Below are positions 1 to 63,730 of a stretch of DNA of 64,000 bases, in pieces. This stretch comes from Bdellovibrionota bacterium. GTDB taxonomy: Bacteria; Bdellovibrionota; Bdellovibrionia; Bdellovibrionales; JAMPXM01. Position 1 is the first letter of the stretch, and each line of letters opens with the position of its first letter. The notes below the pieces were generated by a model. It did not search any database, was not told where the DNA came from, and saw only the letters and a list, made by a program, of their open reading frames with translations. Both the position numbers and the translations under genes were made by a program. The stretch is taken from assembly GCA_963170185.1 (NCBI GenBank), contig CAUJGS010000060.1, forward strand, positions 1-64,000, in the 5' to 3' direction.

Positions 1-1206
1 GAACGATTGCCTCTGTTGCAGCCAAAGGGCCTTCAGGGCTCATATGTTTACAGCGATGCGTACATGGATGACGATCGACTCGTGCACGAGACTCTGCGCT
101 CGGCAGTTGCGCAGGGTGCTCGCGTCGCGAACCGCCTGCGAGCGATTGACGTGCGCATGGAAGAAGGGCGAGTTCGCGGACTTAAAGTGCGCGACGCCAA
201 ATCGGGTCGGGAGTTTGAGATTCACGGCAAGCATTTTGTCAGCACGGTCGGACCGTGGACGGATCGCGTGGCGACGGATCTTTTAAAAGACTGGAAAAAA
301 ATCCTGCGCCCGTCAAAAGGCGTGCATCTTACATTCAAACGATCACGCTTTGACGTGAGCGACGCCATCGTCATGGCGGCTGACAATGACAAACGCATCG
401 TCTTTGGAATCCCTCGGCATGAGATGTACATCATCGGCACAACAGACACGGATTTCTCCGGCGACCCGAAGGACGTCGCAGTGACGGCCGAGGATGTACG
501 TTATCTTTTGGGTGTCGCCGATCATTATTTCCCTGGGGCAAAACTCACAAAGGACGACATCGTTTCTTGTTATGCCGGCGTTCGCCCGTTGGTGGATGAC
601 GGCTCCGCGACGGAATCAAAAACGTCGCGCGAGCATGTGATTCTCAACGATGCTCGAAATGTGACCTTTGTCGCTGGCGGCAAGTACACGACTTATCGCC
701 GAATGGCGCTAGACGCGGTCGAATCGACGCTCGACTATTTTGATATTGAAGACCGTGTGCGTTTCGGCCGTTCGCAGACCACGGTGCCGCTGAATCCGCA
801 CGCGACGGTCGAAGCTTTGTCGCGCGCGCGACACCTTGTTGATCAAGTGTCTCGCGAAACGGGGCTTGCGCGCGAGCATGTCGAGCTTCTCGTCGAACGT
901 CACGCCATGGAGTTTAAGTCACTCCTTCGACATGATCCGGGATCGAGCGTGGAGTCAGGCGAGCGCATGTGGGTGATGGAGGCGAAGCACGCCATTCGTG
1001 AAACGATGTGTGATTCGCTGGTCGATTTCTACGCGCGCCGGGTGCCGCTCTTCTTGGCGGAGTCGGATCATGGTCTACGTTTTCTCGGCCGTATCGCACG
1101 TGCCTTCCAAGAAGAGCTAAGCTGGACAGACGCTGAAAGGTCGGCTCAGTGTTCGGCGCTTCAGGACTACTGCGCGCGCGAACTCGCTTGGCGGGCTCAG
1201 CTTTAA
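1..1206 (+). CDS. glpD: Aerobic glycerol-3-phosphate dehydrogenase, 3' part (5' end outside window)
   Basis: The reading frame is open from base 1 and runs about 401 codons to TAA, so the N-terminal FAD-binding part (the usual protein is about 500 residues) lies outside the window. Visible family features are the segment PLLQPKGLQGSYVYSDAYMD, the TVGPWTDRVA motif, FGIPRHEMYIIGTTDTDFSG and YAGVRPLVDD in the oxidoreductase core. These are followed by GGKYTTYRRMA and a helical C-terminal domain of the DAO_C type. The family oxidises sn-glycerol 3-phosphate to dihydroxyacetone phosphate at the inner membrane and passes electrons to quinone. The assignment rests on motif recognition. No glpF or glpK lies downstream inside the window. 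Confidence 0.88.
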   Translation, partial: ERLPLLQPKGLQGSYVYSDAYMDDDRLVHETLRSAVAQGARVANRLRAIDVRMEEGRVRGLKVRDAKSGREFEIHGKHFVSTVGPWTDRVATDLLKDWKKILRPSKGVHLTFKRSRFDVSDAIVMAADNDKRIVFGIPRHEMYIIGTTDTDFSGDPKDVAVTAEDVRYLLGVADHYFPGAKLTKDDIVSCYAGVRPLVDDGSATESKTSREHVILNDARNVTFVAGGKYTTYRRMALDAVESTLDYFDIEDRVRFGRSQTTVPLNPHATVEALSRARHLVDQVSRETGLAREHVELLVERHAMEFKSLLRHDPGSSVESGERMWVMEAKHAIRETMCDSLVDFYARRVPLFLAESDHGLRFLGRIARAFQEELSWTDAERSAQCSALQDYCARELAWRAQL

Positions 1207-56538: not shown

Positions 56539-57590
56539 CTCTGAAATCCTACCGAATTTATCTGATAGTGCTGGCCGTGATGATCTTGGGTTTGATGGCG
56601 CTCGGAGCTGGCGTTCGCACGATGAACGCAGGGCTTTCTTGCCCCGACTGGCCGCTTTGTTTTGGCAAAGTGATTCCGGATTTCCACCCGGCTGTGTGGT
56701 TTGAATTCGTTCATCGTGCCTACGCGGGTGTCGTAGCGCTTTTGTACGCGGCAGCGCTTGTGATCGCGTTTCGTCGCAAGGATCTCAGCCAAATATCGCG
56801 CAAGAGTCTTCGCTTGGCTGCGGGATGGGGGACGTTGTTTCTTTCTGCGCAAATCATCATGGGTGGACTCACGGTTTTGATGCTGGTGAAAGCGGTGATC
56901 GTGACGACACACTTGCTGCTGGCGACATTGTTTTTGGGTGCCGTTCTTTGGATGTACTTCGTTGTGGATCGTGAGCTCTCCTCCCAAGCGGTGTCCGAAA
57001 CTAAGACTTCTCTGAAGTCGGAGACATGGTTGCCAGGTTGGCCCGTCGTGATTCTTCCGGTTTTGGTTTTTTCTCAGATCGCAATTGGCGGATTGGTCGC
57101 TTCGACGTATGCGGGTTCGGTCTGTGTGGATTGGCCTTTATGTAATGGGAAGTGGGTTCCGACATGGAAGGGTGCCATTGGCCTTCAGGTCATTCACCGC
57201 TTCGTGGCTTACGCGCTTGTGGCGCTCTTTGTGGGTCTTGCGGTTTGGGCAGTGACGGCAGCAAGGGCGGGCGCGAAGACAGTTCTCCCGGCGCGCGTTC
57301 GCGGTCTCTTTCTCTTTGCAGGTGTGATCGTCATCCTGCAAACGGTGGTGGGGATCTTGAATCTCTTGTTTTATATCCCGCCACACATCACGGTGCCTCA
57401 TCAAACTTTGGCGATGATTCTTTTGGGAATCACACTTCGTCTGTGGTTCGAGGCCCGTTCGGCTCGTCTCTTGGGCGCGGTCGAACTAGTTGGCGGCGGG
57501 GTAAGTGATAAAGCCTCGCGTGCGCAGGCAGGTCTCCAGGCCTCCGAGGCCGGCGGCGGTCAGACAAGTGTTGATGTTGTCTTGAGTTAG
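56535..57590 (+). CDS. ctaA: Haem A synthase (COX15/CtaA)
   Basis: This 351-residue membrane protein has eight segments, with the Cys pairs LSCPDWPLCFG and SVCVDWPLCNGKW and conserved His in FEFVHRAYAG, TTHLLLATLF, QVIHRFVAYA and VPHQTLAMIL. It oxidises haem O to haem A. The C-terminal extension (about residues 317-351) lies wholly in the stretch that overlaps the convergent Cys-repeat gene and may not be functional. Confidence 0.9.
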   Translation: MTLKSYRIYLIVLAVMILGLMALGAGVRTMNAGLSCPDWPLCFGKVIPDFHPAVWFEFVHRAYAGVVALLYAAALVIAFRRKDLSQISRKSLRLAAGWGTLFLSAQIIMGGLTVLMLVKAVIVTTHLLLATLFLGAVLWMYFVVDRELSSQAVSETKTSLKSETWLPGWPVVILPVLVFSQIAIGGLVASTYAGSVCVDWPLCNGKWVPTWKGAIGLQVIHRFVAYALVALFVGLAVWAVTAARAGAKTVLPARVRGLFLFAGVIVILQTVVGILNLLFYIPPHITVPHQTLAMILLGITLRLWFEARSARLLGAVELVGGGVSDKASRAQAGLQASEAGGGQTSVDVVLS

Positions 57591-58868
57591 GCCAGCCGGA
57601 AGCATCCCCGAACCATCTAAACAAGCTGCCACGCCCGTAGGGTCATTGAATCGGTGGCAGGCTGCGAACGTCGGCTGATACGGATTGGCGACAAGCTTTT
57701 GCCTAGCGGTAACAAGGCAGCGAGCAACCGAGCCGAGGCCCACGTTGGTTATGCACGTGTCGATGTCTGTTTGCGCAAGTGTTTGTCCGGCGACGCTATT
57801 GGAAGCCGTGCCGTTGACGTCGACCATGCCGTTGGCCGCCAGGCACGAGTAGATACGATCATTGCCGACAAGGGCCGCGCAGTGGTTGATGTGCGCCTGC
57901 ATGATCGATCTTTCGATCACGTTGCGACCGCGTAGACAGCGAGCGATGTTTGCGGAGCCGACAGATTCGTTGCATTGATCGATTGTCGCCTGAAGGGTCG
58001 CTGCGGGAAGAAGTGAGTCGTAAAGGTAGCCGTTTGCTTCCAAGCAGGCGGCGACGCGTGTCGGACCGACGGCATTCACGCAAACATTGATATTGGCCTG
58101 CATGATGACTCTTGGTACGAGGCGATTGCTTCGTAGACAGCGAGCGATAGCCGTTGGCGCATTGATCATACAGGTGTCGATGTTGGCTTGCGTGACGGCC
58201 GTGGTGATGACCTCGCGATTTAAAAGACAGTTTCGAATGACGATGCCGTTAGTTCCTTGTTCTGTGACCTTCGCGCAAAGTGTGGCGTCGCCGTTTGAGG
58301 GAAAGGGGTATAGCGAAAGAAACGCATTTTTCCGTAGGCACTTTTCGGTGTTAGCCAGACCAACGGCGCCGATGCATTCTTCGATTTTCGCTTGAGTGAG
58401 ATTGGCCGGAAGAATGCCGTTTTTCTCGAGACAGCTAGCGATGCGATTGGTGCCAACACGCGAGGCGCAGTTGTCGAGATCCCACTGTAGCGGTTCGCGA
58501 TAATTGAAAATCGGAAAGCCAGCCTTCGTGAGACACATGGCCGAGTCAAGCTGCGCGGGAGCAGGCGTGCCGCTTGTGCACCGAGTGACATCCTCGGATT
58601 TCAATACGCCTTTGAGTTCGCTCTTGGCTTCTAAGCAGTCGTAAATGGGGTCGGTGCCCGATAGGCAGATGCGGTAATCCGACGCTGTTACTCCGGCTTT
58701 CAGTGTCGGTGTTTCCGAGGCGAGCTCAGAAAAACCCGCTAGACCGGGGTCAACCGCAAAACCGCTTCCGCAGTTTTGAAAGAGCCCGATCAATGCGGCT
58801 CCCGCGATCGAAAAAAAGAGTGTGAGTTTCTGTGAACGAGACAGACGACGCCAGAGGCCAGTTTTCAT
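57486..58868 (-). CDS. Exported protein with ten Cys-pair repeats, unknown function
   Basis: This 460-residue protein has a signal-like hydrophobic segment (LTLFFSIAGAALIGLFQNC) that ends in FQNC; the Cys33 is placed like a lipobox Cys but with Asn before it. From about residue 125 the protein is a tandem array of about ten units of 30-42 residues with the pattern T(Q)AxI-xxC-x11-C-L-xxNG. Examples are IEECIGAVGLANTEKCLRKN, INVCVNAVGPTRVAACLEAN and IDTCITNVGLGSVARCLVTA. The two Cys per unit are 11 residues apart in most units and probably form disulfides. I know no named domain with this form. Its 3' end overlaps ctaA by 105 bases. Confidence 0.72.
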   Translation of the reverse strand: MKTGLWRRLSRSQKLTLFFSIAGAALIGLFQNCGSGFAVDPGLAGFSELASETPTLKAGVTASDYRICLSGTDPIYDCLEAKSELKGVLKSEDVTRCTSGTPAPAQLDSAMCLTKAGFPIFNYREPLQWDLDNCASRVGTNRIASCLEKNGILPANLTQAKIEECIGAVGLANTEKCLRKNAFLSLYPFPSNGDATLCAKVTEQGTNGIVIRNCLLNREVITTAVTQANIDTCMINAPTAIARCLRSNRLVPRVIMQANINVCVNAVGPTRVAACLEANGYLYDSLLPAATLQATIDQCNESVGSANIARCLRGRNVIERSIMQAHINHCAALVGNDRIYSCLAANGMVDVNGTASNSVAGQTLAQTDIDTCITNVGLGSVARCLVTARQKLVANPYQPTFAACHRFNDPTGVAACLDGSGMLPAGLTQDNINTCLTAAGLGGLETCLRTRGFITYPAAN

Positions 58869-60770: not shown

Positions 60771-60874
60771 CAAGCCCTTGCCGGAATTTCATCTATTCGA
60801 AGGTCGAGTATCAATTCGGGTCGACAATCGACCGATACGGAAGAAGTCGGAAAACGCCTTTTGTGGGGTTTGTA

Positions 60875-63730
60875 ATGCTTCGGTCCGTTCGGCAGACAGT
60901 CGGATTTTTGTGGATTCTTGTGATCTCGGTGATGGTCTCATGGGCTTCGCCTGAGTTTGCGAAAGCGAATTCCTCCGATAAATTCCGCCGAGAAGTGGAG
61001 TCACTTCTCGGGGCGGCTGTGCAAACGAAACAAGGTGTCGCGCAGATTCGCCAGAAGCGAGATGAACAAGGGCGTGTTCGTCGACTTTTCATTTCAGGTC
61101 GCGGTTTTAGCGAGCTTCAAATGGATGAAAATGGCGATGGGACGGTCGACTTTTTAGAAATCAGTAGAGAGAACAAAACGATCACGGCTTCCCACCCTTA
61201 TCGCGGGCGATTCTTGCGTTTGGTGGTGAGCGAGAAAAACGCAAGCGGTCGTATTGAAGCGACTTATGTTCTCGATTCCAGCGGTCGTAGGTACTCGCTT
61301 CTTAAATCACGCTTGTTCACGCCGGACGCCGTATTAAACGCCGATGGCGACGTACCCGACGACTTTGTGGCAACCGACGCCATCGCGCCAGCCGCTATGG
61401 ATACGGTCGTCGCGGCGTCTGCCGCATCCTCTTCGACCGATGGTGGTAAAACCACCGTGGATCTTCCGGACGACGAAAACTGGCGTAGCTACCAGGCGAA
61501 TACGTGGGGGCCTGATCTCACATGTGTTTCCGACGAAACTGCGATCGGTCGTTTGGCGTCGTTTCAAAGAAACTGGTGGAAGACTTTGAAGTATGACTTC
61601 GATGGCAACACCGAAAAACTGAACGAACGACTTTCGACGGCTAAGATTTTCGATGAGTCTTGTCGTAAGGCGGGGCAAGAAGCGAATTTCAAAGCGTTGT
61701 CGTCGGCGCTGTCGGACGTGATGATGTCGAGTTCCAAAGGCGAGGCTTTGCCTTCGACGGCGACACGCGGGCGCTACTTACGCTGTTTAGAGCTATCCGG
61801 ACTTGGTCAGGTCGCTGCGAAAATCGAAATGCACTTCCTGCAAAGCTTGGATGGCGGAACCGGGGTTCAACGTCCCATTCAATGTGACTTCCGACCTGGG
61901 CAAGCGGGCACTTCTAAGCCTGCGTTCATGTTCCCAGATACGAAGCATATCAAAGTCCAGCTAACGGCGGCGGATCAGGGAAAAACCAAAACAGCGCAGG
62001 GAAGTCCGATCAATTACAAAAATGCGCTTTTTCACGAGTTGATCCACGTCGCGGGTGTTTCTTCCGAAGACATGACTCATGCGGCTCAGGCTTGCTGTGG
62101 TGACTCGACGGACGACCGTCCCGGGGCATGCGCAAAGCTGGATAATTTAGTTTTGGAAGAGCGTCGTTTCTTGGAGCTGGAAACGTTCTTGGCGCGCTCC
62201 GGATTAATGGACCCTCTGTACTCGGACCTCTATGGCAAGTTTGATGACCCTTACACGAACGACTTGTACAGAAAGTTCATCTTGGGTTTAGATGTCTACA
62301 AAAAGGGTTCACTCTTTGAAAGTGGACTACTTAGCAACGAAGAGTTCACAAAGTGCGTAAAGGCTGAGTCCGAAGTGGCTTGCCGCGAAAAGTGGACGCG
62401 TCATATCGCCAATTACACGGCCGAATTTTTTAGCAAGGAATGTCGTAAGTACGTTCCGGCGACGAAGCGCAAAGAGTGCTCGGCTCTTGGTAAAAGTGCA
62501 ACATTCCAAAACCAGATGGCGACGGCTGTCGCCCATTCTTTGATTCGCTTGTCTGTTGATCCGGTTGAACCCGGCGCACCAGCATTGTGTGGTTCGGCCC
62601 GTGTGAAAACGGAAGAGCGTTCTTCACACTATGCAAAAGCGATTTTGGCGATTTTTGGTATCGGTTCGGCGGTGGCAAACGACGCGTCGGTGGATTGTGA
62701 AGGCTCGTCAGGTATTCAGACGGGCGAACCACCGGCTCCGGTTCGACCGGCACCGGGCGCCACGGCGACAGGAGAAGTTCCGCAGCTTGTGCTTACTCCA
62801 CCGACCTCTGGTGGACGTGGCGACGTGGCGACACCAGGACCCGGTCCCAAGTTGGTCACACCTGGAAAGAATGATTTGGACAATGCGGCCGGCGGCGGTT
62901 CGGCACCTGGAGGCGATAGCGGGGTTGTCGCAAATCCGGGACGAACACCGCGTAACCCGAATCGTTCGCCATTGCCAGTAAGTGAAGTCACAAGCCCCGG
63001 CGGCGCTCGCAATGTCGTGGATCGTACGTACCGACGTGCGACCGATGTCGCGGGTCTCACGACCCGAGGCCTTAGAGATTTACGGAATTCCATTCTTCCC
63101 AAAGCCGTCGCTAGCGAGCGCGATCGCAAAGATCGGGTGAGTCAGGGCGGCAGTGCCGAGTTCTTGGCGTTCCGACCAAAGCGCGAAGAGGCTCAGTCGA
63201 TGAAGATCGATAACCCATTTGCAAGCGGAAGCTCGTTGATCTTGGCCTCGGCGGGATCGGCACCGGGTGGATCGGGATCAACCTTCGATGTGGGTGCGGC
63301 GGCGGGTGCGGCTTCGGCGAATATTCCATCGGCATTTGTATCGAAAGACAAACAAGGCGATGCGCCGGCTGCGCGCTCTGCTGGTGGCGCCGGAGCTGCT
63401 CGACAGGCGATCAGTGGAACAGGTGGTGCTGGTTCTGTTGCGGGTTCCTCTGCGGCAGCTTCCGCATCGGCCTCGGGCAGCAAGGCCTCGACGGAAGGCG
63501 GAGCGAAGGCCGCTAGAGCGCCTGCAAATGTGGACATCAATCTGATCTTGCGGATGCGATATCGTGATCTTGAGCCTCGGTTGAACGAAATCTCAGTCCA
63601 ACAAGCTTTGATCGACAAGCGTATTCAAGTGATTCGAGCCAACGGGTCAATCGTCGGTTCGAAGCGAGGTGTGCAAGCCTGCTACAAGTATAACGGCCAA
63701 GAGAAGCCGTTAAAAACTCCGTGCGAGTAG
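60875..63730 (+). CDS. Large exported HEXXH-motif protein with an EF-hand-like loop
   Basis: This 951-residue protein is counted from the ATG at 60875 with GGGG upstream. The signal peptide ends near FAKAN. Residues about 80-91 (DENGDGTVDFLE) fit the 12-residue calcium loop of EF hands. The central part contains the zinc-protease-like HELIHVAG at 387-394 with many Cys around it (AQACCGD). From about residue 570 the protein becomes Pro/Gly/Ala/Ser rich, with linker-like low complexity up to residue 895, then a compact end with VQACYKYNGQEKPLKTPCE. It may be a secreted metalloprotease. The third zinc ligand is not certain. Confidence 0.6.
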   Translation: MLRSVRQTVGFLWILVISVMVSWASPEFAKANSSDKFRREVESLLGAAVQTKQGVAQIRQKRDEQGRVRRLFISGRGFSELQMDENGDGTVDFLEISRENKTITASHPYRGRFLRLVVSEKNASGRIEATYVLDSSGRRYSLLKSRLFTPDAVLNADGDVPDDFVATDAIAPAAMDTVVAASAASSSTDGGKTTVDLPDDENWRSYQANTWGPDLTCVSDETAIGRLASFQRNWWKTLKYDFDGNTEKLNERLSTAKIFDESCRKAGQEANFKALSSALSDVMMSSSKGEALPSTATRGRYLRCLELSGLGQVAAKIEMHFLQSLDGGTGVQRPIQCDFRPGQAGTSKPAFMFPDTKHIKVQLTAADQGKTKTAQGSPINYKNALFHELIHVAGVSSEDMTHAAQACCGDSTDDRPGACAKLDNLVLEERRFLELETFLARSGLMDPLYSDLYGKFDDPYTNDLYRKFILGLDVYKKGSLFESGLLSNEEFTKCVKAESEVACREKWTRHIANYTAEFFSKECRKYVPATKRKECSALGKSATFQNQMATAVAHSLIRLSVDPVEPGAPALCGSARVKTEERSSHYAKAILAIFGIGSAVANDASVDCEGSSGIQTGEPPAPVRPAPGATATGEVPQLVLTPPTSGGRGDVATPGPGPKLVTPGKNDLDNAAGGGSAPGGDSGVVANPGRTPRNPNRSPLPVSEVTSPGGARNVVDRTYRRATDVAGLTTRGLRDLRNSILPKAVASERDRKDRVSQGGSAEFLAFRPKREEAQSMKIDNPFASGSSLILASAGSAPGGSGSTFDVGAAAGAASANIPSAFVSKDKQGDAPAARSAGGAGAARQAISGTGGAGSVAGSSAAASASASGSKASTEGGAKAARAPANVDINLILRMRYRDLEPRLNEISVQQALIDKRIQVIRANGSIVGSKRGVQACYKYNGQEKPLKTPCE

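Follow-up and report, generated by a model that had tools for sequence, protein, structure and literature searches.

Which kind of protein is built almost entirely from evenly spaced pairs of cysteines, and what it may do in the cell envelope, are the questions raised by one gene in the window (the whole 64,000-nucleotide stretch analysed here, from a Bdellovibrionota bacterium). The analysis of its repeats, export signal, predicted fold, relatives and neighbourhood is presented below, and the features of the gene are listed in Table 1.

The protein consists of a signal and twelve cysteine pairs

A preliminary description had placed an exported protein with about ten tandem Cys-x11-Cys repeats at 57486-58868. 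The placement was correct, with the reading frame on the minus strand, and the repeat is real, but the count was too low: the protein has twelve pairs of Cys, and eight of them have exactly 11 residues inside. The numbers of residues inside the pairs are, in order, 9, 14, 11, 11, 15, 10, 11, 11, 11, 11, 11 and 11, and the pairs are separated by 18-29 residues, mostly 18. These widths and gaps give a unit length of about 28-41 residues, close to the 30-42 proposed at first. The 25 Cys of the protein are C33 in the FQNC of the signal and the 24 of the 12 consecutive pairs, and none is spare. A Cys-Cys distance of 12 occurred eight times in the mature sequence, while the mean was 1.26 and the maximum 7 in 20,000 residue shuffles.

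Table 1. Features of the repeat gene and of its product (positions in the window).
Feature	Residues	Cys pair	Positions	Strand	Remarks
Whole gene, 460-aa exported Cys-repeat protein			57486..58868	(-)	ORF, 6 other-genome homologues, dN/dS test
N-terminal signal: basic N-region, hydrophobic helix, FQNC with Cys33	1-33		58770..58868	(-)	
Unit 1	60-87	C-x9-C	58608..58691	(-)	
Unit 2	89-124	C-x14-C	58497..58604	(-)	
Unit 3	126-155	C-x11-C	58404..58493	(-)	
Unit 4	157-188	C-x11-C	58305..58400	(-)	
Unit 5	190-223	C-x15-C	58200..58301	(-)	
Unit 6	225-253	C-x10-C	58110..58196	(-)	
Unit 7	255-289	C-x11-C	58002..58106	(-)	
Unit 8	291-320	C-x11-C	57909..57998	(-)	
Unit 9	322-362	C-x11-C	57783..57905	(-)	Long linker
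Unit 10	364-394	C-x11-C	57687..57779	(-)	In AF2 fragment (residues 363-458)
Unit 11	396-425	C-x11-C	57594..57683	(-)	In AF2 fragment
Unit 12	427-460	C-x11-C	57489..57590	(-)	In AF2 fragment; overlaps ctaA 3' end, opposite strand

Six homologues supplied 45 canonical units, and the consensus of these is roughly (L/I)-T-Q-A-D-I-D-T-C-x-x-x-V-G-x-x-x-I-A-x-C-L-R-K-N-G-x-L-P. The conserved, core-like positions are Q-6, I-3, C0, V4, G5, I9, A10, C12 and L13. The CL(R/E)xNG-like end noticed earlier was recovered as C-L-x-x-N-G, which closes the predicted second helix; the second Cys is followed by L in 41 of the 45 units, and N stands at +4 in 23 and G at +5 in 26. The units of the window protein share a mean identity of 31% (range 17-50%), and on this basis the array is considered old. 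Each unit of the window protein matched best the same-numbered unit of the nearest homologue (12/12), and nearly all did so in the next one (11/12); against the distant homologues, this one-to-one correspondence is lost for many units.

The family is small and keeps every cysteine

Using a profile of the repeats only, family members were found in 7 of the 369 genomes of the phylum, in four genera of one order: three in the genus of the window, a pair in a second genus and single members in two more. An earlier profile was swamped by the haem domain of some homologues; with that domain included, matches appeared in 167/369 phylum genomes, at loci that were otherwise unrelated where sampled. No relatives were found on plasmids, phages or viral contigs. 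Judged by its sequences, this is a small undescribed family with a narrow distribution. Both Cys are kept in all 78 units of the seven homologues, 53 of them at x11 spacing, and the linkers vary from 17 to 29 residues. Whole units are gained or lost as Cys pairs, giving arrays of 10 or 12 units. Since both Cys are always kept while the linkers vary and the units come and go as pairs, pairing of the Cys within a unit is favoured. The proposal of disulfide-locked repeats is therefore plausible, with three DSBA-domain proteins in the genome as a further point in its support. The repeat gene is under purifying selection (pN 0.237 and pS 0.79, the latter saturated, against a 67%-identical homologue).

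The export signal carries Asn before the putative lipidated cysteine

The ATG of the gene is at 58868, and a purine-rich, ribosome-site-like stretch, GGGTGGGG, stands ahead of it. Residues 1-33 have the organization of a lipoprotein signal, namely a basic N-region, a hydrophobic core and, at the end of the core, a Cys within about 35 residues, and FQNC occupies residues 30-33 (codons 58770-58781, minus strand). The small residue (Gly, Ala or Ser) of a lipobox is lacking at -1, and all seven homologues have Asn there; QNC is invariant among them. Export of the protein, as first proposed, is supported. This genome has 28 FQNC-coding sites, and by reading, about 15 of them lie near an ORF start, after a hydrophobic stretch, with a long ORF continuing. 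The permuted string FNQC, used as the control in the same genome, gave two sites, neither of them after a hydrophobic N-terminus. Across the class, roughly a dozen unrelated proteins also have QNC after a hydrophobic helix. The string FQNC had no match in the open-access papers searched. Given its recurrence in about 15 exported-looking proteins of this genome, FQNC is probably a lineage-specific variant of the lipobox, with putative acylation of the Cys, and the surface anchoring suggested for it earlier is plausible. The related export motifs YQNC, FNNC and FNSC likewise occur in unrelated proteins of the class.

Each unit is predicted to fold as a helical hairpin

The structure of units 10-12 was predicted by AF2 from an alignment of 11 rows, made of non-overlapping three-unit windows of three proteins; an alignment of overlapping windows was dropped, as its rows were merely tiled. 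The model had a pLDDT of 84.5 and a pTM of 0.65, and contained six helices in pairs (4-14/16-26, 36-46/48-57 and 67-77/79-88 in the numbering of the model). A single residue splits each pair, and in units 10 and 12 it is the conserved Gly. Each unit is thus predicted to be a helix-turn-helix hairpin. The full-length prediction from four rows was poor (pLDDT 56); its helix pairs, of low confidence, agreed with those of the fragment. The overall shape is therefore unproven and may be rod-like, superhelical or that of a compact bundle, and the stiff rod imagined in the preliminary description is unsupported. Foldseek with the three-unit model found no solved structure alike (best E 4), and the full-length model gave only meaningless matches, as expected at its pLDDT.

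The repeat resembles known families without joining them

No match to the repeat was found above the cut-offs in Pfam, NCBIfam and PHROGs, and a search of the PDB by sequence also gave no repeat match, with cytochrome c6 as the only hit when the haem domain of the homologues was included. The profile searches thus agree with the early statement that the units belong to no named family. The nearest family was PF00839 (Cys_rich_FGFR, GLG1-type), against which the window protein scored 13.6-14.9 bits, below the 22-bit Pfam cut-off, and one other homologue 10.3 bits. A profile-profile comparison with PF00839 gave a 12-column local match with a probability of 57% and a score of 18.1. Shuffled profile controls, in which Cys, or Cys plus Gly and Leu, were kept, reached 15.9 at most, and none of 400 column shuffles attained the observed score.

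Like the GLG1/ESL-1 type, the window family is an exported tandem Cys repeat; both have the core G-x6-C-L-x-x-(N/H) and, ahead of the preceding Cys, an acidic-hydrophobic step, and the C2-x12-C3-L segment of PF00839 resembles its C-x11-C-L. However, the PF00839 units of Bdellovibrionia, of which we extracted 22, have four Cys in the arrangement C-x7-C-x12-C-x11-C and a period of about 51 residues, whereas the window family has two Cys per unit, at C-x11-C, with a period of about 31 residues. The four-Cys pattern appeared in none of the 78 units. With no outer Cys pair, a different spacing and a sub-threshold score, the protein was not filed as a member of PF00839, and the resemblance may be either remote homology or convergence. 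Many small secreted PF00839 proteins, mostly with two four-Cys repeats, occur in Bdellovibrionia itself, in 38 of 144 genomes of the class (L061-L072).

Two systems of Helicobacter pylori are also comparable. HcpB and HcpC consist of 36-residue disulfide-bridged alpha/alpha repeats (cited in PMC2581425). Like these Sel1-like repeats, the window protein is an exported protein with alpha/alpha repeats bridged, as proposed here, by disulfides; unlike its units, theirs are 36 residues long and follow another consensus. Sel1 and TPR profiles had no match to the window protein at E up to 10, nor to the seven members at E up to 1. The repeat region of CagY, in the type IV secretion system, has 38-39-residue A motifs that are Lys/Glu-rich and contain three Cys (PMC2581425). 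It shares with the window protein the tandem alpha-helical units (predicted here), the regularly spaced Cys and the location in an envelope protein, and no sequence match was found between the two. With it, an unregistered two-Cys helical-hairpin repeat joins the short list of disulfide-bridged alpha/alpha arrays known so far.

A cytochrome c domain and an accessory locus

In four of the seven homologues the array is followed, after unit 10 or 12, by a C-terminal CxxCH domain. Three of the four were scanned with profiles, the fourth being nearly identical to one of these, and the domain matched PSCyt1 (E 3e-6) or Cytochrome_CBB3 (E 4e-6) and contains CxxCH followed further on by Met-Pro. Neither CxxCH nor the cytochrome domain is present in the window protein and its two nearest homologues, and the genus of the window is without the domain. 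The tree of seven rows was too divergent to separate gain of this domain from loss. The window protein shares its export-signal class with exported PSCyt1 (PF07635) and Cytochrome_CBB3 (PF13442) proteins of Bdellovibrionota but, unlike them, lacks CxxCH and the cytochrome domain. The domain is common on otherwise unrelated exported proteins and is thus a mix-and-match module, and its fusion to the array hints at the function and does not prove it. The phylum abounds in exported proteins with a PSCyt1-like cytochrome c domain at their end, and the genes for these often lie side by side in pairs (L041-L053).

A cytochrome oxidase cluster of COX2, COX1, ctaB and ctaA, in which SCO1 and cytochrome c genes are also present, ends at the repeat gene, which is tail to tail with ctaA and adjoined by a GST-family gene. 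This order is kept in G004 and not in G001, G036, G029, G127 or G123. Since synteny holds only with G004, the cox cluster was rejected as a general functional partner of the gene. In two genomes of the same genus, G003 (L114, G003:C36:62500-67500) and G002 (L115), the repeat gene is missing and ctaA stands directly beside the GST gene. The empty site indicates that the repeat gene is accessory, through either gain or loss, and its function should not be read from the cox neighbourhood. GC and GC3 of the gene resemble those of its neighbours, and a search around it yielded no consensus promoter or terminator.

The repeat gene and ctaA converge and overlap by 105 bp at their 3' ends (57486-57590). 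Relatives do not conserve the tail of ctaA past residue 311 or so, and there is no such overlap in G004. Elsewhere in the window, 60863-63730 (+) encodes a secreted protein of 955 aa that has a zinc-metallopeptidase-like HELIH motif and no Pfam match; G004 has two tandem copies of it (L031).

Function of the array

With middling confidence, we favour a lipid-anchored, disulfide-braced array of alpha-hairpins that serves as an envelope spacer or scaffold and carries a cytochrome in some lineages. The protein would be secreted to the envelope and probably lipidated at its N-terminus. Its mature part would consist of twelve alpha-alpha hairpins of about 30 residues each (helix, one-residue turn, helix), and in every hairpin one disulfide would join the Cys of the first helix to that of the second. 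Such an array could act as a disulfide-stabilised, presumably elongated spacer or scaffold at a membrane of the cell envelope. In related lineages it would bear a C-terminal monohaem c-type cytochrome, and in the genus of the window it ends on unit 12.

Adhesion, the role proposed in the preliminary description, would make the array an outward-facing rod for attachment to prey or surfaces. Repeat arrays are common as adhesin stalks, Bdellovibrionota include predators, and the gene is accessory, as adhesins often are. A precedent is Bd0875 of B. bacteriovorus, a lipobox-bearing surface adhesin important in prey invasion (PMC11003981). However, there is no adhesin domain, ligand-binding tip or predation-gene neighbourhood to support this role specifically; a repeat unit is the last element of three members and a cytochrome that of the other four, an outward orientation has no support, and the family is rare (7/369 genomes). 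Adhesion is possible, and we regard it as unlikely. The cytochrome c on four of seven homologues points to a scaffold or redox role at least as much as to adhesion.

A peptide- or protein-binding solenoid of the Sel1/TPR kind, with a groove along the array that holds an envelope partner as in the Hcp proteins of H. pylori, appears quite unlikely. It would fit the predicted tandem alpha/alpha units of about 30 residues and has its precedent in the 36-residue, disulfide-bridged repeats of HcpB and HcpC (cited in PMC2581425), but the Sel1, TPR and Foldseek searches gave no match, and the right-handed superhelical packing of antiparallel units seen in such proteins would be hypothetical here. The fusion in relatives and the position beside the cox/ctaB/ctaA cluster with its SCO1 and cytochrome c genes, shared with G004, would agree with a periplasmic redox or haem-related protein, whose Cys pairs or hairpins would have a direct part in electron transfer or in supplying haem or copper to the neighbouring cytochrome oxidase. 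This role is very unlikely in our estimate, as the neighbourhood is not kept in five genomes with the gene and ctaA occurs without the gene in G003 and G002. His (0.7%) and Met (1.4%) are also rare in the protein, which argues against metal storage as well. To our knowledge, C-x11-C is not a haem or copper motif.

Within the favoured scaffold reading, a more specific and more tentative picture is that of 10-12 tandem single-disulfide alpha-hairpins, lipid-anchored by a lineage-specific Asn-Cys lipobox, as disulfide-laddered tethers that would present a c-type cytochrome, or go without it, according to lineage. A remote kinship of the repeat with PF00839, if real, would reveal how four-Cys and two-Cys hairpins interconvert. 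The recurring FQNC suggests that envelope proteins of Bdellovibrio relatives escape lipoprotein prediction by the standard lipobox, a point of relevance to catalogues of their surface proteins.
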